Of a stretch of DNA of 64,000 bases, positions 5,642 to 19,568 are shown piece by piece. The position numbers and the translations under genes were made by a program. The number at the start of each line of letters is the position of its first letter. Position 1 is the stretch's first letter. Below the pieces are notes generated by a model. That model had not been told where the DNA came from. It saw only the letters and a list, made by a program, of their open reading frames with translations, and made no database searches. Source of the stretch: Dyella sp. GSA-30 (lineage in GTDB: Bacteria > Pseudomonadota > Gammaproteobacteria > Xanthomonadales > Rhodanobacteraceae); assembly GCF_027924605.1 (NCBI RefSeq), contig NZ_AP027042.1, positions 1,155,524-1,219,523 on the forward strand. The letters are read 5' to 3'.

Positions 5642-7204
5642 TCAATCCTTTAGCAGTAGACGGTAAGCCGGATTGGCGGTTTCGTTCTTGTACGGATAGC
5701 CGAGCCTGGAAAGGAACTGGGTAAACACCCCGCGCTCCTCCGTCGGCACCTGGATACCCACCAGGATGCGGCCGTAATCGGCACCGTGGTTGCGGTAATG
5801 AAACAGGCTGATATTCCAGTCCGGATGCATATGATCGAGAAAGCGGGTGAGTGCACCGGGACGTTCGGGAAAATCGAAGCGGTAGAGCTGTTCGTCGTGG
5901 GCCAGCGCGGAACGACCGCCGACCATATGGCGCAGGTGCAGCTTGGCCAGTTCGTCGTCGGTCAGATCGAGGGCGGCGAAGCCTTCGGCCTTGAACGCTT
6001 GCAGCAGCGTGGTGTTCTCCGCATGGTTGCGCGTCTGGATGCCGACGAAGATATGCGCATCGGTGGCATTACCGATGCGGTAGTTGAACTCGGTGATGTT
6101 GCGATCGCCAAGCGTTGCGCAGAAGCGGCGAAAGCTGCCGCGCTCCTCGGGAATGGTGACGGCAAAAATGGCCTCATGGCGTTCACCGACCTCCGCGCGC
6201 TCGGCAACGAAACGCAGGCGGTCGAAATTGAGATTGGCGCCGGAAACGATCGCGGCCAGGGTTTCGTTGCGCACCTGCGTACGTGCGACATATTGCTTGA
6301 GCCCTGCCAGCGCCAGGGCACCGGACGGTTCGGGAACGCTACGCGTTTCGTGGAAAATATCGCGAATCGCCGCACATATCGCATCCGTGTCCACGCGCAG
6401 GACCTCATCGACATACTTGCTGCACAAGGCGTAGGTCCGTTCGCCGGGCTGCTTTACGGCGGTACCGTCGGCGAACAGTCCGACTTCATCCAGCGCGATG
6501 CGTTTTCCCGCCTCCAGCGAGCGCGCCATGGCATCGGCATCGTTGGCCTGCACGCCGATGATGCGTATCTCCGGGCGCAGTGCTTTTACATAGGCTGCGA
6601 TGCCGGCAATCAGACCGCCGCCGCCGATCGGTACGAAGATCGCGTGCAGAGCCTTGGGGTGTTGCCGCAGTATCTCCATGCCGATCGTGCCCTGGCCGGC
6701 AATCACGTCCAGGTCGTCGAACGGATGGACCAGGGTGAAATCATGCTGGGTCTGCAGTAACGCCGCGTGCGCCTGGGCGTCGCTATAGGAATCGCCGGCC
6801 AGCACGACAGTGACCGATGACCCACCGAAGCGTCGCACCGCGTCGACTTTTACCTGCGGCGCCGTCACCGGCATCACGATGGTCGCGCGTACACCGAGCC
6901 TCGCTGCAGCCAGGGCGACGCCCTGCGCGTGATTCCCCGCGGAGGCCGCAATGACGCCGCGTGCCCGTTGAGCATCGTCCAGCGTAGCCATCTTGTTGTA
7001 GGCGCCGCGCAGCTTGAACGAGAACACCGGCTGCTGGTCTTCGCGTTTGAGCAGAATGTGCTGGCCCAGGCGCGCCGACAGCAGCGGCGCCTGTTCCAGC
7101 GCCGTCTCACGCGCTACGTCGTAGACCTGAGCCGACAACACGCGACGCAACAAGTCATGCTGCGTATCGGCGAGATCGACCGTGTCGTCGGCAAGTGCGC
7201 TCAT
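5642..7204 (-). CDS. ilvA: Biosynthetic threonine dehydratase IlvA
   Basis: Deaminates threonine to 2-oxobutanoate, the first committed step to isoleucine. The N-terminal PLP domain shows SFKLRGAYNK with the Schiff-base Lys64, SAGNHAQG at 88-95 and a glycine-rich phosphate loop VPIGGGGLIAG near residue 190. The C-terminal third (from about residue 330, EERGSFRRFCATLGDRNITEF and ERPGALTRFLDHMHPDWNISLFHYRNHG) carries the two ACT-like regulatory repeats that bind Ile/Val. Full length is 520 residues, typical of the long allosteric form. It is the last gene of the leuA-to-ilvA unit and overlaps ilvM by four bases (7201-7204). Confidence 0.96.
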   Translation of the reverse strand: MSALADDTVDLADTQHDLLRRVLSAQVYDVARETALEQAPLLSARLGQHILLKREDQQPVFSFKLRGAYNKMATLDDAQRARGVIAASAGNHAQGVALAAARLGVRATIVMPVTAPQVKVDAVRRFGGSSVTVVLAGDSYSDAQAHAALLQTQHDFTLVHPFDDLDVIAGQGTIGMEILRQHPKALHAIFVPIGGGGLIAGIAAYVKALRPEIRIIGVQANDADAMARSLEAGKRIALDEVGLFADGTAVKQPGERTYALCSKYVDEVLRVDTDAICAAIRDIFHETRSVPEPSGALALAGLKQYVARTQVRNETLAAIVSGANLNFDRLRFVAERAEVGERHEAIFAVTIPEERGSFRRFCATLGDRNITEFNYRIGNATDAHIFVGIQTRNHAENTTLLQAFKAEGFAALDLTDDELAKLHLRHMVGGRSALAHDEQLYRFDFPERPGALTRFLDHMHPDWNISLFHYRNHGADYGRILVGIQVPTEERGVFTQFLSRLGYPYKNETANPAYRLLLKD

Positions 7205-7449
7205 GAGTGCAGCAGGGATACCGGGCGGCTGACCTCGATGACATCGACCAGCTTGCGCGTCTGCTCGATGATCTGCTGCACGGTACCTTCCGCGCCATGC
7301 ATGACCAGTGTCAGCTGGGACACACCGGGGTCCTGGGTGATCGCTACCGTCAGCGAATCGATATTGCAGTTGCGCGCGGCAAACAGTCCGGCGACGCGAA
7401 CCAGGGCGCCGGCTTCGTTCTGCAGCAAAATGGAAAGTGTATGTTTCAT
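7201..7449 (-). CDS. ilvM: Acetolactate synthase small subunit (IlvM type)
   Basis: An 82-residue single ACT-domain protein (MKHTLSILLQNEAGALVRVAG... NCNIDSLTVAITQDPGVSQLTLVMHG), the short regulatory subunit that partners the catalytic ilvG product just upstream. The start at 7449 is preferred over the open extension to 7494 because a GAGG ribosome site lies just before it in the 7-base gap after the ilvG stop, and because the ACT fold begins at once. Its stop overlaps the ilvA start as ATGA. Length fits IlvM/IlvN rather than the about 160-residue IlvH. Feedback sensitivity cannot be read from the sequence. Confidence 0.9.
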   Translation of the reverse strand: MKHTLSILLQNEAGALVRVAGLFAARNCNIDSLTVAITQDPGVSQLTLVMHGAEGTVQQIIEQTRKLVDVIEVSRPVSLLHS

Positions 7450-7456
7450 GGTCGCC

Positions 7457-9328
7457 TCAGAACATGTCGGTCGTGGAGGCGTGCGCGGCTGCACTGTCGC
7501 GCGCAGCGATAAAGTCGCCGGTAATCATCTGCGCGTAGCTGGCACCAGGGCCGACCATCGGATACACGCCGGCATCCGGATCGATCAGCACCTCCAGGAA
7601 AGCTGGCCCGGGGAAGGCGATGAACTCGGCGACCATGTCGGCGACCTCTTCGGGACGCTCCAGTCGTTTGGCCCATTCGAAGCCATCGGCTTGCGCCGCC
7701 TTGATGAAGTCCTTGCGATGCAGGCTCTTGTCCGACGAGGCAAAGCGACCCTTGAAAAACAGCTTCTGCCATTGCCGCACCATGCCGTCGCCAAAGTTGT
7801 TCAGCACGACAATCTTGACCGGCAGTCCGTAGGTGGTCACGGTTTCCAGCTCGCCGAGATTCATGCGGATGCTGGCATCGCCGTCGATATCGATCACGAT
7901 GCTGTCGCGCCGCGCGAACTGCGCGCCGATGGCGGCGGGAAGGCCAAAACCCATCGTGCCCATCGAGCCGGAGCTGAGCCAGTGACGCGGCTCACGGAAA
8001 TCGAAGTACTGCGCCGACCACATCTGGTGCTGGCCGACGCCGGTACTGATGATGGCGCGGCCCTGCGTATGGCGGTTGATCTCCTCGATCACCGCATAGG
8101 GTTGCACGAGGGAGCTGTCGCGGTCATAGCCCAGGGCATGGATCTGCTTCAGCTCGGCAATGTGCGCGTGCCAGGGCGCATAACGTGTCGCGCTGTCACG
8201 ATGCAGGCCATGTGTTTGGCCGTAGTCGCAGAGCCGATGCAGCGAGCTGCGCAGGTCGCCGATATGCCGCCAGTCGACGGCCTTGACCTTGCCGATTTCG
8301 GCCGGGTCGATATCGATCTGTGCCACCGTGCGTGCACGTGGCGCAAACTGGTCGGGGACACCGGCGACGCGATCGTCAAAGCGCGCGCCGAGCGCAAAAA
8401 GAAAATCACAGTCCTCCACCGCATAGTTGGCATACGCGGTGCCGTGCATGCCCAGCATGTGCAGGGCCAACGGCTCGGTGGTGTCGTAAGCACCCAACGC
8501 CATCAAGGTGGTGGTGACGGGAAAGCCGAACGTATCGACGAAACGCTTCAGTGCATCGGCCGCACCGGAAGCGATCACGCCGCCGCCGGCATAGATCAAT
8601 GGGCGTTTGGCGGTGGACAGCGCCTGGAAGAATGCCGCGCATGCCTCATCGCTCAGATACGCTTCGTCGATGGCACGCAGGCGCGCCCGGTAACCGGGAA
8701 TGGGCAAGACCCCGTGGCCTGCAAAGGTCAGCGGCGCGTTTTGTACGTCCTTCGGGATATCGACCACCACTGGGCCGGGTCGCCCGCTGCGTGCGATCTC
8801 GAATGCCGTACGCAGCGTGACTTCCAGTTGTGCCGGGTCGGTCAGCAGAAATACGTGTTTAGCGCACGAACTCATGATGTTGCTGATCGGTGCCTCTTGA
8901 AAGGCATCGCTGCCGATCGCCGTCGTTGGCACCTGGCCGCTGATCACCACCATCGGGATCGAGTCGGCCATCGAATCGCGTACCGGCGTCACCATATTGG
9001 TGGCGCCCGGACCGGACGTGACGATCGCCACGCCGACCTTGCCGGACGCGCGCGCGTAACCGGCGGCCATAAAGCCGGCACCTTGTTCGTTCGCCGGCAC
9101 GATCAATGGCATCGGTTCGCCGCCATCAGGTCCGATATGCGTGGCGTTATAGCGGAACACAGCGTCATAGACCGGCAGGATGGCGCCGCCGGAATAACCA
9201 AACAGAACATGCACGCCTTCGTCGGCCAGTACCTGGACCACTACTTCGGCGCCGCTCATGGTTTGCCCGGCGAGCGGGTGCTCGCTTTGCGTGGGTTCCG
9301 TTGGCGTGATGTGCAGTGGGGCCTTCAT
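7457..9328 (-). CDS. ilvG: Acetolactate synthase large subunit
   Basis: The ThDP-dependent catalytic subunit making acetolactate and acetohydroxybutyrate for Val/Leu and Ile. Visible features are the N-terminal ThDP glutamate region VLADEGVHVLFGYSGGAILP, the central FAD/CoA-type domain, and the C-terminal ThDP/Mg motif GDASIRMNLGELETV followed by NNFGDGMVRQWQ. With the start at ATG 9328 (MKAPLHITPTEPTQ) it has 623 residues, somewhat longer than the usual 550-590, the excess being at both ends. The frame is open to 9412, but no start with a good ribosome site exists there. An AAGGA lies 13 bases before the chosen ATG, a long spacing. It is separated from ilvC by a 111-base gap holding a large inverted repeat. 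Confidence 0.94.
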   Translation of the reverse strand: MKAPLHITPTEPTQSEHPLAGQTMSGAEVVVQVLADEGVHVLFGYSGGAILPVYDAVFRYNATHIGPDGGEPMPLIVPANEQGAGFMAAGYARASGKVGVAIVTSGPGATNMVTPVRDSMADSIPMVVISGQVPTTAIGSDAFQEAPISNIMSSCAKHVFLLTDPAQLEVTLRTAFEIARSGRPGPVVVDIPKDVQNAPLTFAGHGVLPIPGYRARLRAIDEAYLSDEACAAFFQALSTAKRPLIYAGGGVIASGAADALKRFVDTFGFPVTTTLMALGAYDTTEPLALHMLGMHGTAYANYAVEDCDFLFALGARFDDRVAGVPDQFAPRARTVAQIDIDPAEIGKVKAVDWRHIGDLRSSLHRLCDYGQTHGLHRDSATRYAPWHAHIAELKQIHALGYDRDSSLVQPYAVIEEINRHTQGRAIISTGVGQHQMWSAQYFDFREPRHWLSSGSMGTMGFGLPAAIGAQFARRDSIVIDIDGDASIRMNLGELETVTTYGLPVKIVVLNNFGDGMVRQWQKLFFKGRFASSDKSLHRKDFIKAAQADGFEWAKRLERPEEVADMVAEFIAFPGPAFLEVLIDPDAGVYPMVGPGASYAQMITGDFIAARDSAAAHASTTDMF

Positions 9329-9339
9329 GGATAAACGCG

Positions 9340-9436
9340 TGTCCTTGGAATAGGAGTGAGAAGTAAGGAGTGAGGAGTGAGTTCGGGGGAGCGAGTGGCT
9401 TTCTCTCGCCACTCACTCCTCTTCACTCACTTCTTG
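9340..9436. repeat. Imperfect inverted repeat in the ilvC-ilvG gap
   Basis: Two GA-rich arms of about 23 bases (about 9356-9380, with GTGAGGAGTGAGT, and its complement near 9413-9436) enclose a smaller hairpin GAGTGGC/GCCACTC. On the operon (minus) strand this forms a long interrupted stem between ilvC and ilvG, without a T tract. The same GAGTGAGGAGTGAG unit recurs after the LtaS-like gene near 32322-32352, so it is an extragenic repeat. It may affect mRNA stability between the two genes (inference). Confidence 0.6.
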
Positions 9437-9439
9437 CTC

Positions 9440-10465
9440 TCAGCCTGCTTTCTTCAGCGGCTCGGCCGCCGCCGGCTGCGCCGCACCCGCATTCAACCAG
9501 GGCATGCGCGCACGCAGCTTGGCGCCGACCTGCTCGATCGGGTGATCCAGATCTGCCTGCTTCAGTCGCTTGTAGTTGGGCAGGCCGGCCTGGTATTCGG
9601 CGATCCAGTTGCGCGCAAAGGTGCCGTCCTGGATATCGGTCAGCACGGCCTTCATGCGCTGCTTGGTTTCCTCATCGACCACGCGCGGGCCGCTGACGTA
9701 GTCGCCGTACTGCGCGGTTTCGGAGACGAATTCGAGCATGCGCTTCAGGCCGCCTTCGTAGAACAGGTCGACGATCAGCTTCAGCTCGTGCATCACTTCG
9801 TAATACGCGATCTCCGGCTTGTAGCCCGCTTCGACCAGCGTCTCGAAACCCTTGATCACCAGCTCGCTGGCGCCACCGCACAGCACGGCCTGCTCACCGA
9901 ACAGATCGGTCTCGGTCTCTTCCTTGAAGTCGGTTTCGATCAGCAGCGCGCGGCCGCCACCGATGCCGGCGGCATACGCCTTGGCCTTGGCTTCGGCTTG
10001 GCCGGTGGCGTCCTGCTCGACGGCGAACAGGCAGGGCACGCCGCGGCCGATCTCGTACTCGCGGCGCACCAGTGCGCCCGGGCCTTTCGGCGCCACCAGC
10101 ACGACGTCGATGTCCTTGCGCGGATCGATCTGCTTGAAATGCACGTTGAAGCCGTGCGCGAACAGCAGCGCCGCGCCGGCCTTGATGTTCGGTGCGATGG
10201 CATCGCGATAGATCGCCGGCTGAGTCATGTCTGGCGTCAGCACTGCAACCAGGTCGGCATCGCGCACGGCATCGCCGGGCTCGGCCACGTTGAAGCCTTC
10301 GGCGCGCGCGCGCTCCCAGGACGGGCCTCCCTTGCGCAGGCCGACGACGACGTCGAGGCCGGAGTCGCGCAGGTTCAGCGCATGCGCGCGGCCCTGGCTG
10401 CCATAGCCCAGGACAGCGATGCGGGCATTGGCAAGTTGGTCGGTAGTAGCGGCGGGTTGGCTCAT
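9440..10465 (-). CDS. ilvC: Ketol-acid reductoisomerase
   Basis: Converts acetolactate/acetohydroxybutyrate to dihydroxy acids with NADPH. The N-terminal Rossmann motif [20 protein letters not shown] (from about residue 17) is followed by GLRKGGPSW, the cofactor-specificity loop. Acidic metal ligands occur in [14 protein letters not shown], and the short class I knotted domain follows. The start is ATG 10465 ([11 protein letters not shown]), which overlaps the ilvD stop as ATGA; the open extension to 10645 lies over ilvD and is not real. The protein is 341 residues, with a short Ala/Pro/Lys-rich tail ([14 protein letters not shown]) beyond the conserved core. Confidence 0.95.
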
Positions 10466-12195
10466 GCGATAGCTCCAGTCAGGGCAGGGTTGGAAGTGGT
10501 GGTGTGGGTGGCAGTCGAAGCAGCGTTGGAATCGTTGGTGTCGTTGTCGAAAGCGCGCGTGACCGCGCCATCGGAAGCGGAACTGACCAGACGCGCGTAC
10601 TTGGCGAGTGCGCCGCGCGTGACCTTGGGTGCGGGTGCACGCCAATGCTTGCGGCGTTCGGCCAGGTCGGCATCGGTCGAGATCTCGCGCGTGCCGGCAT
10701 CGATACGGATGCGGTCGCCTTCCTGCAGCAAGGCAATCGGGCCGCCACGAACGGCTTCCGGCGCGATATGGCCGACCATGTAGCCGTGCGTCGCGCCGGA
10801 GAAGCGGCCGTCGGTGATCAGCGCGACATCGTCGCCCAGACCGCGTCCGATCAAGGCGGCAGTGACGCCGAGCATCTCGCGCATACCGGGGCCACCGGCA
10901 GGTCCTTCGTTGCGGATCACGATTACATCGCCCTTGACGATGTTGCCGGACTGCACCGCGGCGAAGGCTTGTTCTTCGCTTTCGAACACGCGGGCACGGC
11001 CGTCGAAGTGACCCGCGCCCTTGCCGGCGAGTTTGAGAATGCAGCCCTCAGGTGCGAGATTGCCGTAGAGGATCGAATAGCCGCCGCGCGGTTTCAGCGG
11101 CTGCGTGGTCGGGTGCACGACGTCCTGTGCCTCGGCGCGGGGCGCGGCGCTGGCCTCGTCGAACAGGCTGCGCCCGGTCACGGTGGGCGCATCGTCGAGC
11201 ATGCCCGCTGCAATCAGTTCTTGGGCTACGCGCGCGCTGCCACCGGCACCGAACAGTTCCACCGCGGTGTAGCGACCGCCGGGCAGCAGATCGGCAATGA
11301 CCGGGGTGTCCCTGGATGCGGGCTCGAAATCTTCCAGTGTCCACGGCACACCGGCTTCGCGTGCGATCGCCAGCAGATGCAGCACGGCGTTGGTCGAACC
11401 CGCCGTCGCCGCAACCATGCGTGCGGCGTTGCGCATCGCCGTGACAGTGATCAGTTCGCGCGGGGTGCGCTGCTCGCGCAGGCATTCCATCGCCAGCTCG
11501 CCGCTGCGAAAGGCGGCCTGGGCCTTGGCCGGGTGCGTCGCGGGGATATCGTTGAAGCCCATCGGCGACAGGCCCAGCGTGGTCAGCACCATCGCCATGG
11601 TATTGGCGGTGAACTGGCCACCGCAGGCGCCGGCGCCCGGGCAGGCATCGCGTTCGACCGAGGTCAGTTCGGCATCGTCGATCTTGCCGGCGCCATGTGC
11701 GCCGACCGCTTCGAATACCTGCTGGATGGTGATCGGATGATTGTCGTGGGTGCCATGCGCGATGGTGCCGCCGTAAAGCGCGACACCGGGGATATTCAGA
11801 CGTGCCAGCGCCATGGCCGCGGCGGGAATGGTCTTGTCGCAACCACACAGCACCACCATCGCGTCGAGACAGTGGCCGTCGACAGCCAGCTCGATCGAAT
11901 CGGTGATCACCTCGCGGCTGATCAGCGAGGCACGCATACCCAGCGTGCCCATGGCGATGCCGTCAGTCACCGCGATCGTATTGAACTCGATGGGCGTGCC
12001 GCCGGCCGCGCGTACACCGGCAGCGGCATGCTCGGCCAGTTCGCGCAGGTTGAGGTTGCAAGGGCTGACGTTGGACCAGGTATGCACGATCGCCACCAGC
12101 GGCTTGGCGATGGCTTCGTCGTCCAGCCCGGTGGCGCGCAACATCGCGCGTGCGGGCGCGCGGTCGGGGCCGGTCTTGATGAGATCACTGCGCAT
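10462..12195 (-). CDS. ilvD: Dihydroxy-acid dehydratase
   Basis: Dehydrates dihydroxy acids to the 2-oxo acid precursors of Val, Leu and Ile. The three iron-sulfur cluster cysteines of the family are present: Cys46 (SPCNLN), Cys119 ([10 protein letters not shown]) and Cys191 ([13 protein letters not shown]). It is 577 residues, full length. It starts at ATG 12195 with only a weak ribosome site (GGAA), and is preceded by a 138-base gap containing a terminator-like structure, so its expression may be partly uncoupled from leuB upstream. It overlaps ilvC by four bases. Confidence 0.95.
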
Positions 12196-12213
12196 GAAAG
12201 ATTCCGTCGAAGG

Positions 12214-12322
12214 AAAAAAAGTTGCCGCTGCTACGCGTACGCGTCGAAGGGGTGAGGGGGGACGACATGTCCTCGGGGCGAGAGAGACATGCCGTTCCGG
12301 CCCGCACGCGTAACAGCAGCAA
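12214..12322 (-). terminator. Terminator-like structure between leuB and ilvD
   Basis: On the operon strand, a 17-base arm (12322 down to 12306, TTGCTGCTGTTACGCGT) can pair along its full length with ACGCGTAGCAGCGGCAA (12238 down to 12222), with two G-U pairs. A run of seven T (12220-12214) follows after one base. The 67-base loop itself holds a CATGTC/GACATG hairpin. Position and T tract resemble an intrinsic terminator that would let only part of the transcripts pass into ilvD-ilvA, but the large loop makes its strength uncertain. A 19-codon frame inside (from the ATG near 12291) is not rich in branched-chain codons. Confidence 0.5.
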
Positions 12323-12333
12323 GGAGAGAACCA

Positions 12334-13431
12334 TTAGCCGCAGGCTCGCGCGCCGGAGAAGAACGCCGCCGAATTGCTTGCGTGTTCTTCCAGGGCGGTC
12401 AGCACCGCTGCCTGCACTTCAGCGGTACCGGCGGTGCCGCCGATATCGCGGGTATGCGGGCCATCGCGCAGTACTTCGTCGATCGCCGCTTCCACCGCAT
12501 TGGCTTCCTCTTCCAGCTCCAGCGAGTGGCGCAGCAACAAGGCGACAGACAGAATGGCGCCGGTGGGGTTGGCGACATTCTGGCCCGCGATATCCGGTGC
12601 GGAACCGTGGATCGGCTCGTACAGGCCGTTGAATCCATCGCCCAGCGATGCCGAAGGCAGCAGGCCCAGCGAACCGGCCAGTGCCGCCGCTTCGTCGGTC
12701 AGGATGTCGCCGAACAGGTTTTCGGTGACGACGACGTCGTAGCGGCCGGGCTGGGTCAGCAACAGCATGGCCATCGAATCGACCAGCTGGTGTTCCAGCT
12801 TCACGTCCGGATACTCGGCCGCGATGCGCTGCACGGTGCTGCGCCACAAGCGCGAGGTTTCCAGTACGTTGGCCTTGTCCACCGAGGTAACGTGGCGGCG
12901 GCGCTGGCGAGCCAGATCGAACGCGCGGCGCGTGACGCGCTCGATTTCGGCGACGGTGTACTTGCACTCGTCTGTGGCCGTGTCGGCGGTACGCGTCTTC
13001 GCGCCGAAATAGGCACCGCCGGTGAGTTCGCGGACGAACAGCACGTCGACATGCTTGAGCTTTTCTTCTTTCAGCGGCGACAGCCTGGCCAGGGCCGGAT
13101 GCACCTGCAGCGGACGCAGGTTGGCGTAGACGCCCAGTGCCGCGCGCAGTGCCAACAAGCCTTGCTCGGGCCGAACCGGCGCATTCGGATCGGACCACTT
13201 GGGGCCGCCGACGGCGCCGAGCAGAACCGCGTCGGCCTTCTTGCAGGCTTCCAACGAGGCTTTCGGCAACGGTTCGCCGTGCGCGTCGATGGCGCAGCCG
13301 CCGATCGCATGCTCTTCGAAGGTGAATTCATGGCCGAAGTGCTCGGCGACCGCATGCAGCACGGCAACCGCGGCCGCGGTGACTTCGGGACCGACGCCGT
13401 CGCCGGGCAGGGTAACGATATGCGCTTTCAT
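12334..13431 (-). CDS. leuB: 3-isopropylmalate dehydrogenase
   Basis: Oxidatively decarboxylates 3-isopropylmalate in leucine synthesis. Motifs: [10 protein letters not shown] at the N-terminus, the substrate loop [10 protein letters not shown] (134-143), catalytic Lys186 in [13 protein letters not shown], and [12 protein letters not shown] with the metal-binding aspartates (from 238). The start is ATG 13431, which overlaps the leuD stop (ATGA); the longer open frame runs over leuD. It has 365 residues, normal length. It is the last gene before the terminator-like gap that precedes ilvD. Confidence 0.95.
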
Positions 13432-14021
13432 GCAGCCTCCTGGCGGGCTTGCGTGGTGTGTTCGTAACGGGTGATGGCGTCGTGGTTCTGCAGCAGGTAG
13501 CCGAGCTGGTCGACACCGTTGAGCAGGCAATGACGGGCGAAGGGTTCGAGCTGAAAGCCGATGCGGCCACCGTCGGGCAGCGCGATGTATTGCTCGCGCA
13601 CGTCGATAATCAATTCGACGCCCGGGTGCTCCAGCAGCCAGCGATGTTCGGCCTCGTCGATGACGATGGCGAGCAAGCCGTTCTTCAGCGCGTTGTTGCG
13701 GAAGATGTCCGCGATCTCGCTGCAGATCACCGCGTTGATGCCGTAGTCGAGCAGGGCCCAAGGCGCGTGCTCGCGCGAGGAGCCGCAGCCGAAGTTGCGT
13801 CCGGCGACGATGATCGAGCAGCCCTTGGCTTCGGGGCGATTCAGCGGGAACGCAGGGTTATCGCTGCCATCGGCCTGGTAGCGCCAATCGTTGAAACACA
13901 GCTTGCCCAGGCCTGCGCGTTCGGTGGTGGTCAGAAAGCGCGCGGGAATGATGCGATCGGTATCGATGTTTTCATCGGGCAGGACGGCGGTGCGCGAGTG
14001 GATGCGGGTCACGGGTTTCAT
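13428..14021 (-). CDS. leuD: 3-isopropylmalate dehydratase small subunit
   Basis: The small swivelling subunit of the isopropylmalate isomerase, partner of LeuC encoded just upstream. It opens [30 protein letters not shown], and carries the conserved [17 protein letters not shown] segment and the [10 protein letters not shown] region. The length is 197 residues. The start at 14021 is set by the ATGA overlap with leuC. The frame is open to 14231, but that part lies over leuC and is not coding for LeuD. Confidence 0.95.
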
Positions 14022-15430
14022 GCGGCCACCTCGGTCAGATATTCGCGCGGATCGGCGATGACACCTGCCAATGCCGACGCGGCAGCGGTCGCGGGACTGG
14101 CCAGCACAGTGCGAGCCCCTTTGCCCTGGCGACCTTCGAAATTGCGGTTGGACGTGCTGACGACCAGTTGGCCCGGTTGGGCCAGATCGCCATTCATCGC
14201 GATGCACATCGAGCAACCCGGGATGCGCCATTCGGCACCGGCTTCGGTAAAGACCTGATGCAGGCCTTCGCGTTCGGCATCGCGGCGTACTGCTTCGGAA
14301 CCCGGCACGACCAGCATGCGCACGCCATCGGCGACGCGGCGGCCGCGCAGCACCTGGGCCGCTTCACGCAGGTCCGACAGGCGCGAGTTGGTGCAGCTGC
14401 CGACAAAGACCACGTCGACCGGCGTGCCGCGCATCGGTTGGCCGGGTTTGCTCTGCATGTAGTCGAGCGCGCGTTTCTCTTGTGCGTTGCGCGCGGCGGG
14501 AACCGGGGCATCCATCGCGATCGCCATGCCCGGATGCGTGCCGAACGTGACAGTGGGCCGCACCTTGCTCGCATCGATATGCACTTCGCGGTCGTAGCTG
14601 GCGCCATCGTCGGTGCGCAACGCGCGCCATTGCGCGACAGCCGCATCCCAGGCTGCGCCCTGCGGCGCGCGTGGACGGCCTTTCAGCCAGGCGAAGGTGG
14701 TTTCGTCCGGCGCGATCAGGCCGGCGCGGGCACCGGCCTCGATCGACATGTTGCACACCGTCATGCGCTCTTCCATCGACAGCGCCTCGATCGCGCCGCC
14801 GCGGTATTCGATGACATGCCCGGTGCCCCCATCGACGCCGATCTCGCCGATGATGTGCAGGATCAGATCCTTGGCGCCGACGCCGTGCGGCAGGTTGCCG
14901 TCGACATGAATCGCCAGTGTCTTGGCCTTGCGCTGCAACAGGCATTGCGTGGCCATCACGTGGCCAACCTCGGTCGTACCGATACCGAAGGCCAACGCGC
15001 CGAAGGCACCGTGCGTGGAGGTGTGGCTGTCACCGCAGACGATCGTCATGCCGGGCTGGGTGGCGCCAAGCTCCGGCCCGATCACATGGACGATACCGCG
15101 ATCTTCGCTATCCCAGCCGTGCAGCTCGACGCCGAACTCGCGGCAGTTTGCTTCAAGCTGCGCGACCTGCGCCTTCGCTTCGGCATTTGCATAGGGACGC
15201 TCGCCATCGGCGCCCGCTGCCAGCGTTGGCGTGGAGTGATCCAGTGTTGCCAGCATGCGATCGGGACGGCGCAACGACAGGCCACGTTCGCGCAGTTCGG
15301 TGAACGCCTGCGGCGAGGTGACTTCGTGCACCAGATGCAGGTCGATATACAAAATTGCCGGCGTATCGGCGGTTTCGGGCGCGACGACATGCGCGTCCCA
15401 TAGTTTCTGGAACAGATTGCGCGGACTCAT
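14018..15430 (-). CDS. leuC: 3-isopropylmalate dehydratase large subunit
   Basis: Aconitase-family subunit that isomerises 2- to 3-isopropylmalate. The three [4Fe-4S] ligands are seen as Cys346 in [10 protein letters not shown] and Cys406/Cys409 in [11 protein letters not shown]. The [12 protein letters not shown] and [13 protein letters not shown] blocks are also typical. It has 470 residues, normal length, with four-base overlaps to ilvE upstream and leuD downstream, so LeuC and LeuD should be made together. Confidence 0.96.
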
Positions 15431-16365
15431 GCGGCTTCCAGGGTGGCAGTGGTGTGGACGGGTGTGAGCCAGCCGCGCGTGTCTTGCGTGCGGCCGTCGA
15501 ACAGGCCGAAGAAGCAGTCGCGCAGGGCCTGCGTGATCGGGCCGGGCTTGCCGTTGCCGACCGGCTTGCGGTCGACCGAGCGCACCGGCGTGATCTCGGC
15601 GGCCGTGCCGGTGAGAAACATTTCGTCGGCGGAGTACAGCGCTTCGCGCGGCATCTCGCGCTCTTCGACCTGGTAGCCCAGATCGGCCGCCAGCTCCATC
15701 ACCGACTCGCGCGTGATGCCGGCCAGGATGCCGGCGCTGGCCGGCGGCGTGTAGATGCGACCGCGCTTGACCACGAACACGTTCTCGCCGGCACCTTCGC
15801 TCAGCAGACCGTTCGCGCCCAGCGCGATGCCTTCGTCATAACCGCCGCGACGTGCTTCCAGGCAGATCAGCTGGCTGTTGAGATAATTGCCGCCAGCCTT
15901 GGCCCAGCTCGGCACGGTGTTCGGCGAAGGGCGATGCCACGAAGACACGCACACATCGGCGCCACGTTCGGCCGCTTCGCCCAGATACGCGCCCCAGTCC
16001 AATGCCATGATTGCGACGTCGACCGGCGCGCCGTCCTTGGGCAGTACGCCCAGACCGCCGGCGCCGCGGAACACGATCGGGCGCACATAGGCCGACTTCA
16101 TGCGGTTGGCGCGAATCAGTTCCAGGCAGGCATCGTTGATCTCGTCTTCGCTGTAGCCGATATCGATCTCATAGACCTTGGCCGATTCGAACAGACGGCG
16201 AGTATGTTCCTGCAAACGGAAATACGCAGGGCCATCGGGTGTGGCGTAGACACGCTCGCCTTCGAATACCGACGAGCCGTAATGCAGCGCGTGGGTACTG
16301 ACGTGGACGGTGGCTTCCGTCCAGGGACGAATTTGTCCGTTATGCCACAGAAAAGGCGTACTCAT
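15427..16365 (-). CDS. ilvE: Branched-chain amino acid aminotransferase
   Basis: Class IV PLP transaminase performing the last step to Leu, Ile and Val. The PLP lysine is Lys156 in [16 protein letters not shown], and [16 protein letters not shown] and the glutamate-containing [15 protein letters not shown] are the other family blocks. It has 312 residues. The start at 16365 ([12 protein letters not shown]) overlaps the leuA stop. Having ilvE inside a leu cluster, second gene after leuA, means all three pathways share their final enzyme on one transcript. Confidence 0.95.
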
Positions 16366-17945
16366 GCCACAGCTCCTTGCACTTTTGGATGGGTCCCCGT
16401 GGTCGGGGCCTGGCGCGCGATGCGATTGACGATGACCAGCGCCGCCAGTGCGGTGGCCTCGACGATGTCCGTGCTGATGGCCTGACCGCGCCACTCGCGG
16501 TCCTGGTTGCGCGCGGTCAGTTGCGCCTGGCCTTGTGCGTCGCCGCCTTCGCTGACGCCGCGTACCTGGAAGTTGGTCAGCTCCAACGGTGTGCCGGTGG
16601 CGCGTTCGATCGCGCGCAGGACGGCATCGACCGGGCCGTCGCCGATCGCCGCTTCACCGATCTCGGTGCCGTCTTCGTGAGACAGTCTTACCGATGCGGA
16701 CGCACTGCCGCCCAGGTGCGAGCTGCTGTTCAACTGCACCAGATGCCACGGGCCGACAGCCTCCGGATCATGACCAAGCGCGATGGCCTCCAGATCGTCG
16801 TCGTGGACTTCGCGCTTCTTGTCGGCCAGCGCCTTGAAGCGGGCAAAGATGTTCTCCATCTCCGCGTCGTCGGGCGTGTAGCCCATCGTCTGCAGACGTG
16901 AACGCAGCGCATGGCGACCCGAATGCTTGCCTAGCACCAGCTTGGTTTCGGCGATGCCGACATCCTGCGGATGCATGATTTCGTAGGTGCCGCGGTGCTT
17001 GAGCATGCCGTGCTGATGAATGCCCGACTCATGCGCGAAGGCGTTCTCGCCGACGATCGCCTTGTTGCGCGGCACGTTCTGGCCGGTCAGCAGGCTCAGC
17101 AGGCGCGAGGTCGGATACAGCTTGCGCGTGTCGATGCGGGTGTCGACGCCGAAGTGCGGCGCACGCACCTTCAAGGCCATGACGATTTCTTCCATCGCCG
17201 CATTGCCGGCGCGTTCGCCGATGCCGTTGATCGTGCATTCGACCTGTCGCGCGCCGGCACTCACAGCGGCCAGGCTGTTGGCCACCGCCATGCCCAGGTC
17301 GTTGTGGCAGTGCGAAGAGAAGATCACCTTGTCGGCGCCTTGCACATGGCGTCGCAGATAAGCGAACAGCTCGCCCATCTCGCCGGGCGTGGTGTAGCCG
17401 ACGGTATCGGGGGCATTCAACGTCGTTGCACCGGCGGCCACGGCCGCGTTGAACACCTCGACCAGGAATTCCGGCTCGGTGCGTAGCGCATCTTCGGCGG
17501 AAAACTCCACCTCATGGCACAGCCCGCGCGCCAGCTCGATCGAGCGCACCGCCGTATCGATGACCTGCTGTTTGCTCATGCCCAGCTTGTGCTCGCGATG
17601 CAGCGGGCTGGTCGAGAGAAACACGTGGATGCGCGAGCGCTGCGCTTTCTCGATGGCGCGTGCGGTGGTCTCGATATCGCCGGGCTGGCAACGCGCCAGG
17701 CCGCAGACGGTAGCGTTGCGCAGCATGCCGGCGATTTCCGAGACGGCCGCGAAATCATCCGGCGAAGCCTGCGGGAAGCCGGCTTCGATGATGTCCACGC
17801 CAAGCGCCTCCAACGCGTGCGCGAGCCGGAGCTTGGCGCGTCGATCCATCGAAAAACCGGGCGCCTGCTCGCCGTCGCGCAGGGTCGTGTCGAAGATGCG
17901 TACATGATCTTCGGCGTCGGTACTGGTTTGCTGATCGGGTGTCAT
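16362..17945 (-). CDS. leuA: 2-isopropylmalate synthase
   Basis: Condenses acetyl-CoA with 2-oxoisovalerate, the committed step of leucine synthesis. Motifs: RIFDTTLRDGEQAPGFSM near the start, the metal-binding HCHNDLGMA, and GIGERAGNAAMEEIVMAL. The C-terminal region (about residue 390 on) is the LeuA allosteric domain that binds leucine. It has 527 residues, the long LeuA1-type size. It is the first structural gene after the attenuator: the leader-peptide stop is 113 bases upstream and the terminator hairpin ends about 40 bases before the ATG. Confidence 0.96.
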   Translation of the reverse strand: MTPDQQTSTDAEDHVRIFDTTLRDGEQAPGFSMDRRAKLRLAHALEALGVDIIEAGFPQASPDDFAAVSEIAGMLRNATVCGLARCQPGDIETTARAIEKAQRSRIHVFLSTSPLHREHKLGMSKQQVIDTAVRSIELARGLCHEVEFSAEDALRTEPEFLVEVFNAAVAAGATTLNAPDTVGYTTPGEMGELFAYLRRHVQGADKVIFSSHCHNDLGMAVANSLAAVSAGARQVECTINGIGERAGNAAMEEIVMALKVRAPHFGVDTRIDTRKLYPTSRLLSLLTGQNVPRNKAIVGENAFAHESGIHQHGMLKHRGTYEIMHPQDVGIAETKLVLGKHSGRHALRSRLQTMGYTPDDAEMENIFARFKALADKKREVHDDDLEAIALGHDPEAVGPWHLVQLNSSSHLGGSASASVRLSHEDGTEIGEAAIGDGPVDAVLRAIERATGTPLELTNFQVRGVSEGGDAQGQAQLTARNQDREWRGQAISTDIVEATALAALVIVNRIARQAPTTGTHPKVQGAVA

Positions 17946-17980: not shown

Positions 17981-18010
17981 AAAAAACCCCGCTCCGTTGC
18001 CGGTGCGGGG
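17981..18010 (-). terminator. Attenuator terminator of the ilv-leu operon
   Basis: On the minus strand the RNA would fold CCCCGC-A-CCG, tetraloop GCAA, CGG-A-GCGGGG (18010 down to 17987), i.e. six plus three base pairs around a single A-A mismatch closed by a GNRA loop. A T6 tract (17986-17981) follows directly. It sits between the leader peptide and leuA, the classical place of an attenuator. The 5' arm CCCCGCACC (18010 to 18002) is complementary over eight bases to GGTGCGGG (18069 to 18062) at the end of the leader ORF, giving an alternative antiterminator. Confidence 0.9.
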
Positions 18011-18057
18011 TTCTTCGGGTGGTTCAGGTTAGTTCTGCTTTACCTGGACACGCGCCC

Positions 18058-18195
18058 TCAGCCCGCACCTCCGTTGATAATAAGGAGTACGAGTACGAGG
18101 GTAAGAAGGAGGTTGCCGTGGACCTGCAAGCGTCCCGGAACCGTCAGGAGACGGATCTTTTCGGTGACGTGAAGGTGGCTGTTGCGCTGCGGCAT
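18058..18195 (-). CDS. ilv-leu operon leader peptide
   Basis: A 45-codon ORF (ATG at 18195, TGA at 18060-18058) too short to be noticed by usual gene length limits. It begins MPQRNSHLHVTEK, and near its end reads NLLLTLVLVLLIING, a run of 12 codons containing only Leu, Val, Ile and one Thr, which are the end products (and Thr precursor) of the operon it precedes. This is the signature of a ribosome-mediated attenuation leader. Its last codons GGT GCG GG are the antiterminator strand. There is no Shine-Dalgarno sequence: the predicted transcription start lies on the ATG (see promoter). Family logic is established; the regulatory switch is inferred. Confidence 0.88.
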   Translation of the reverse strand: MPQRNSHLHVTEKIRLLTVPGRLQVHGNLLLTLVLVLLIINGGAG

Positions 18196-18202
18196 GTCGT
18201 CG

Positions 18203-18232
18203 ACCCTAACGGTGGCCGACAAGTCATGTCAA
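18203..18232 (-). promoter_or_regulatory. Promoter of the ilv-leu operon
   Basis: On the minus strand: -35 TTGACA (18232-18227), an 18-base spacer, -10 TAGGGT (18208-18203). The leader-peptide ATG begins 7 bases after the -10, exactly where transcription should start, so the leader mRNA would be leaderless. The thr operon has the same geometry. Upstream, at 18290-18309, lies a 20-base palindrome-like sequence that could be a regulatory site. Confidence 0.75.
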
Positions 18233-18965: not shown

Positions 18966-18998
18966 ATTTCTCGTATTTTGCCGGACCCGGAGACTTCG

Positions 18999-19568
18999 AT
19001 GGAAAAGCTCGACCCCCGCACCACGGCCCTGGTGCTTATCGACCTGCAGTTGGGTATCGCCCCGTTTGCCGGCGGCCCATACACCTCGGCTGAAGTGTAC
19101 GAGCGCGCGGGCCGGCTTGCCGCTCGTTTTCGTGAACTGGGCTCGCCGGTGGCCCTGGTACGCGTCGGTTTCTCGCCTGACCATGCCGACGCGCTCAAAC
19201 CCCCGGTCGACGCGCCATCGCCGCCCCGCAAGCTGCCGGACAACTGGCTGGACTATGCCCCCGAGCTTCATGCCTGCGACTCGGATATCCACATCATCAA
19301 ACGGCAATGGGGTGCATTTTATGGCACCGAGCTGGAGTTGCAGATGCGTCGTCGCGGCATCCAGACGCTGGTGATGGGGGGTGTTTCGACGAACATCGGC
19401 GTCGAGTCGACGGCGCGGGTGGCGTTCGAGCTGGGCTTTTCGCAGGTGCTGGTGGAGGACGCGATGAGCTCTTCCGATGCGGATATGCATGCGTTTGCGG
19501 TGGGGAAGATTTTTCCGCGGTTGGGGAGGGTGCGTAGTACTGAGGAGGTCTTGGGGATGTTGGCGTGA
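18999..19568 (+). CDS. Isochorismatase-family protein lacking the catalytic cysteine
   Basis: A 189-residue cysteine-hydrolase-fold protein. The catalytic Asp is Asp15 (LVLIDLQLG) and the Lys is Lys101 (IIKRQWGAF). The usual nucleophile position in the cis-peptide block is Gly134 ([16 protein letters not shown]) instead of Cys. Loss of Cys to Gly is also seen in true isochorismatases such as EntB, so the protein may hydrolyse a vinyl ether or similar bond rather than an amide. The start at 18999 is chosen over an in-frame TTG at 18978 because GGAG lies 6 bases before it. Probably controlled by the divergent TetR regulator. Substrate unknown. Confidence 0.85.

Follow-up and report, generated by a model that had tools for sequence, protein, structure and literature searches.

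The stretch of DNA analysed here, referred to as the window, comprises 64,000 nucleotides from Dyella sp. GSA-30. Its minus strand carries a ten-gene branched-chain amino acid unit, leuA-ilvE-leuCDB-ilvD-ilvC-ilvB-ilvM-ilvA, which covers the pathway from threonine and pyruvate onward. The first gene, leuA, occupies positions 16362-17945 (NCBIfam NF002086, 721 bits), and the remainder of the unit, namely ilvE, leuC, leuD, leuB, ilvD, ilvC, ilvB, the gene for an ilvM-like ACT protein and ilvA, extends over positions 5642-16365. Within it, ilvB encodes the acetolactate synthase large subunit, and the ACT protein (97 aa, 7201-7494) was named ilvM by eye. The spacing of the ten genes suggests that they form a single transcript.

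Ahead of leuA, and on the same strand, lies a leader ORF (18058-18195; MPQRNSHLHVTEKIRLLTVPGRLQVHGNLLLTLVLVLLIINGGAG) of 45 codons followed by TGA. Direct reading of the sequence confirmed both the coordinates that the original prediction had given for this ORF and its Leu/Val/Ile run. The latter, the control run, corresponds to codons 29-40 and ends five codons ahead of the stop. A gene for a TetR-type regulator (18939-18316, minus strand) is found directly upstream of the leader. It is followed by a hydrolase gene on the opposite strand (18978-19568, plus strand; PRK11440 model, 280 bits), and these two genes stand between the ilv-leu unit and a thr unit.

Distribution of the leader and its control codons

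A DNA search of 60 relatives plus the window's own genome gave a match in 47 of 61. Among the 30 best of these matches, the window's own included, every locus had a Leu/Val/Ile-rich leader ORF ahead of leuA, and these 30 rows were used to build a covariance model, R1. At E <= 0.001, R1 matched 205 of the 233 genomes of the family, in 25 of 26 genera, leaving 28 family genomes with no match, and 211 of the 299 genomes of the order, in 70 of 86 genera; the weakest of the matches so counted may be due to chance. At the level of the class, 47 of 274 genomes matched, three of them belonging to the order, and the other 44, at 38.4 bits or less, were taken as chance terminators.

For comparative analysis, 100 loci were aligned to R1, namely, the 30 loci of the DNA search, 10 of 49 R1 loci and 60 further fetched stretches; they were chosen with the same model that aligned them, and related sequences among them are not independent. 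These loci are what a stricter cut left of 126 matches. The 26 excluded, all of them weaker second matches, were read as mirror images of terminators. Motifs identified the first gene behind the element as leuA in 59 loci, ilvC in 22 and ilvD in 16. Sixteen loci were unassigned at first and three after the use of looser motifs, and these last three were named by eye: an acetolactate synthase gene in one case, and an ACT-domain and transaminase pair in two. Since branched-chain genes lie behind all 100 loci, the leader appears to stay with the pathway while the first gene differs between families. The leader run and the paired segments described below, on whose conservation the original prediction had staked itself, are both conserved in relatives.

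Searched with 4227 Rfam models at gathering scores, the window returned only a tRNA. With an E-value threshold the sole leader-type match was Thr_leader, at 21.3 bits against a gathering score of 55, and 20 fetched loci gave no Rfam match. Among the titles returned by a literature search, none concerned branched-chain attenuation in the Xanthomonas group. A comparative study of attenuators in proteobacteria, published in 2004, may already cover Xanthomonas, and thus we make no claim to a first report.

In all 98 leaders compared, six to nine codons of the densest nine-codon window encode Leu, Ile or Val, and the commonest leader end among the 30 loci reads LALVLVLLIT(N/S)GGAG-stop. Codon bias was counted in this nine-codon window of each leader (n=98) and set against leuA of the 30 loci, with the following results. 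First, CUC and CUU make up 95% of the Leu codons in the control windows and CUG 3%, compared with 23% and 71%, respectively, in leuA. Second, GUA accounts for 73% of the Val codons versus 3.4% in leuA. Third, AUU accounts for 94% of the Ile codons versus 6.7% in leuA. That is, the control run shuns CUG and prefers CUY, GUA and AUU. The genome regions scanned for tRNA-Leu contain one gene per anticodon for five anticodons, including GAG. In theory, the sensitivity of an attenuator is set by its codon choice, as stated in an earlier study (PMC1183508). The bias may instead be partly a product of the pairing between segments 1 and 2.

Pairings among four RNA segments

All of the segments lie on the minus strand. 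Segment 1 (CCCTCGTACTCGTACTCC, 18084-18101) consists of control codons, and segment 2 (GGAGGTGCGGGCTGAGGG, 18055-18072) contains the stop codon and the core GGTGCGGG (18069-18062). A linker (18013-18054) follows, which carries a small hairpin, CAGGT/ACCTG, with 82.3% of cells paired and no clear covariation in the 30 loci. Segment 3 (AACCCCGCACC, 18002-18012) is both the 5' arm of the terminator and the partner of segment 2, and segment 4 with its U-tract (17981-17992) supplies the 3' arm, GCGGGG (17992-17987), and T6 (17986-17981). The terminator as a whole extends from 18012 to 17981, with CCCCGCACC at 18010-18002 and a GCAA loop. Thus, the complementarity of GGTGCGGG to the terminator 5' arm, and the T6 terminator itself, are found by direct reading where they had been predicted; the proposed GNRA cap is present in the window as the GCAA loop, but by eye it is not conserved in relatives. 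As a separate observation, GGCAAC in the terminator loop (18001-17996) can pair with GTTGCC past the U-tract (17980-17975), and once 2:3 is enforced in the fold a longer form of this hairpin occupies part of the U-tract; by eye, the hairpin is inconsistent among relatives.

The terminator pairing, 3:4, is formed by 100% of cells in the 100 loci, with 17 cells changed on both sides, at four pairs, versus 1.1 in shuffles. The antiterminator pairing, 2:3, has a duplex energy of -16.8 kcal/mol in the window, which 192 of 3000 synonymous-codon randomisations reach, and from the window alone its standing above chance is only suggestive. Across the 100 loci the comparative case for 2:3 is firm. Although R1 did not contain this pairing, 94.7% of its cells are paired, versus 34-62% when the segments are slid, and none of 2000 partner permutations gave duplexes as good as those with own partners, whether in all rows or in the 45 lowest-scoring. 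Nine cells are changed on both sides, versus 1.5 (sd 1.1) in shuffles, all at a single pair that varies between U-A, A-U and C-G. Shuffled data contain no fewer doubly changed pairs (1 observed) or additional pair types (6 observed), because the remaining positions hardly vary and the changes are confined to that pair. Covariation between GGTGCGGG and the terminator arm, suggested as a check when the switch was proposed, is therefore found in the 100 loci, at one pair only.

The original prediction had also held that a pair of competing helices suffices for the switch, in place of the classical four segments. This is unsupported, and it is the only point at which that description is wrong: in the minimum free energy fold of the window the control codons pair with segment 2, CCCTCGTACTCGTACTCC with GGAGGTGCGGGCTGAGGG over 16 bp, which gives the usual 1:2, 2:3 and 3:4 scheme. 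A minimal switch, with 2:3 against 3:4 alone and no functional 1:2, so that an untranslated leader would read through, is an alternative that we consider unlikely. In its favour, the energy of 1:2 in the window is not below the nulls, as 1776 of 3000 synonymous and 805 of 3000 codon-permuted sequences are as low. In the 30-row MAFFT alignment, which is not structure-fitted, 1:2 lacks clear covariation, but 91.5% of its cells are paired, compared with 35-54% when slid. In the 100 loci, in an alignment fitted to that helix, 91.0% of cells are paired, and 65 are changed on both sides versus 20.8 (sd 7.4) in shuffles. When the segments of each row were scored with their own and with swapped partners, none of 2000 permutations equalled the own pairs over the full set of 100 rows; in the 45 rows with the lowest scores 255 of 2000 did, and the advantage of own partners is not clear there. 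Taken with its place in the predicted fold, the 1:2 pairing is likely, although not proven, to be real, and would presumably form in vivo; it is the least firm part of the scheme.

The putative promoter and the predicted leaderless start

The putative leader promoter (18203-18232, minus strand) consists of TTGACA (18232-18227), an 18-nt spacer and TAGGGT (18208-18203), the last of which ends 7 nt before the leader ATG. Counted from the first T of TTGAC, an in-frame ATG follows at 35-38 nt in 98 of the 100 loci, namely, at 37 nt in 55 loci, 36 in 30, 38 in 8 and 35 in 5. The start codon is ATG in all 98, although the search also accepted GTG and TTG. The remaining two loci come from one genus and show no TTGAC at this place. 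An SD-like motif 4-14 nt upstream of the leader ATG was found in none of the 98 loci. Together, this spacing and the absence of an SD-like motif lead us to predict that the leader is leaderless, with transcription beginning at the ATG or within a few bases of it. The original prediction had the ORF right and overlooked this feature of its start.

The RNA could instead start farther upstream, or translation at an internal start codon, so that the leader would not be leaderless. Such an arrangement is quite unlikely given that the ATG and its distance from TTGAC are kept in nearly all loci and SD-like motifs in none, but some observations speak for it: the -10 of the window matches only three of six consensus bases, and a simple scan of the window does not list the leader promoter. 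The leader terminator is not listed by such a scan either, and both of these calls rest on conservation.

The predicted leaderless leader also has a distinctive beginning. Its first seven codons, M-x-Q-R-N-S-H (18175-18195, minus strand), are conserved in the family, and in codons 2, 4, 5 and 6 this extends to the third position, which holds 1.6-2.0 bits of information in 55 family rows, against 0.5 at codon 3, 0.9 at codon 7 and 0.2-0.6 at codons 12-14. This conservation, assessed in 97 of the 98 leaders (locus L121 omitted), is weaker in 24 rows of a second family and absent from 18 rows of other families. It hints at a constraint at the nucleotide level. Candidate explanations for the conservation are promoter escape, an element for initiation, and a role in trans of the peptide or the RNA. 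Leaderless translation is favoured by CA-rich starts. Pairing of the first codons with the stretch behind the terminator was considered and dropped, as several relatives, examined by eye, do not have it.

A second leader ORF of leaderless type, one of three hits of a window-wide scan, occurs at 23377-23246 on the minus strand. It has a Thr/Ile run, STTTITTTGT, and a TTGAC 37 nt before its ATG, and it precedes genes for homoserine dehydrogenase (23145-21994), thrB (21997-21017) and thrC (21020-19692). Leaders of this thr type were present in 21 of 30 fetched loci, amounting to 18 distinct leaders with that of the window counted. No U-tract follows the thr leader. In the consensus fold of the 18 leaders, the end of the ORF pairs with CGCAACGG..CCCGCCC, which could alternatively pair with GAGGCGGG directly 3' of it, and a hairpin GGCCTCC..GGAGG masks the SD. 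As modelled, the thr leader would possibly act by translational rather than transcriptional attenuation. A more general proposal, which we regard as possible though doubtful, is that amino acid attenuators of the order, for ilv-leu and thr alike, are as a rule built on leaderless leader ORFs; that attenuation would also sense the capacity for leaderless initiation; and that the first seven codons, rich in CA, would act at the nucleotide level in such initiation or in promoter escape.

Proposed mechanism and known attenuators

The locus combines a run of product codons, a terminator between the leader and the first gene, and an antiterminator that uses the 5' arm of that terminator. We estimate a probability of roughly 0.9 that it controls the ten-gene unit as a transcription attenuator operated by the ribosome, in the manner of the classical leu/ilv attenuators and with a leader ORF that is leaderless. 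That attenuation of this unit would operate through a Leu/Val/Ile leader, as first proposed, is strongly supported by comparison across relatives. That the terminator ends the upstream TetR gene constitutively, next to an ORF present by chance, is extremely improbable: it does sit between that gene and leuA, on the same strand, but the run, the promoter, the pairings and the gene neighbours are all widely conserved.

We infer stalling and regulated termination to proceed as follows. First, a ribosome that reaches the stop codon would cover segment 2, so that terminator 3:4 forms and the RNA ends near 17981. Second, when charged tRNA-Leu or tRNA-Val is scarce, a ribosome would stall at codons 29-38 and cover segment 1, leaving segment 2 free, so that 2:3 would form first and the polymerase would continue into leuA to ilvA. 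Third, if the leader is not translated, 1:2 would form and 3:4 would terminate.

This attenuation scheme was explored by folding the RNA that remains downstream of a ribosome placed at codon 29 and from codon 33 onward, on the assumption that its edge lies 14 nt beyond the first nucleotide of the codon in the A site. With the ribosome at codon 29 and at codons 33-38, the RNA left exposed as far as segment 3 folds as the antiterminator (-30.5 and -29.5 kcal/mol). The antiterminator is weaker at the Ile codons 39 and 40 (-22.6 and -16.4 kcal/mol) and gone at codon 41 or later. When the whole terminator is included, with the ribosome at codon 35, the terminator state is 2.3 kcal/mol more stable; the switch must therefore be kinetic, the order of synthesis being what decides. 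The codon mix matches the products of the unit, as had been pointed out, but a ribosome on Ile codons 39-40 already covers part of GGTGCGGG, and hence, under the model, scarcity of Ile is predicted to evoke a smaller response than scarcity of Leu or Val.

What this offers is a testable model, common to much of an order, in which a whole branched-chain pathway would be controlled from one site, by an element that no Rfam model matched. As judged from sequence comparison, the mechanism would be ordinary and well conserved, with the predicted leaderless leader as its unusual feature, providing a natural test of a leaderless ORF as the sensor of an attenuator.

The enteric leu, ilvGMEDA and ilvBN attenuators have a leader ORF, segments 1-4 and a terminator ahead of the first gene. 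The element described here has in common with them a Leu/Val/Ile leader ORF, the four predicted segments, the terminator before the first gene and a biased codon choice. It differs in its predicted leaderless leader of 45 codons, with a run that ends five codons before the stop, in combining leu with ilv genes in a single unit, and in the lack of an Rfam match at gathering scores. An earlier study names leu, ilvGMEDA and ilvBN as attenuated operons, and for the leu attenuator of S. typhimurium it describes CUA codons, in contrast to the CUY, GUA and AUU found here (PMC1183508). The ilvBNC attenuator of Corynebacterium glutamicum, for which a three-hairpin model has been described, shares a branched-chain operon and three hairpins, a likeness drawn from description and in a distant lineage (PMC11857589). 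Finally, the trpL attenuator RNA of S. meliloti has the leader ATG at its very 5' end, and this provides a precedent for a leaderless leader peptide, albeit one with Trp codons, of 14 aa and from an alphaproteobacterium (PMC7298713).
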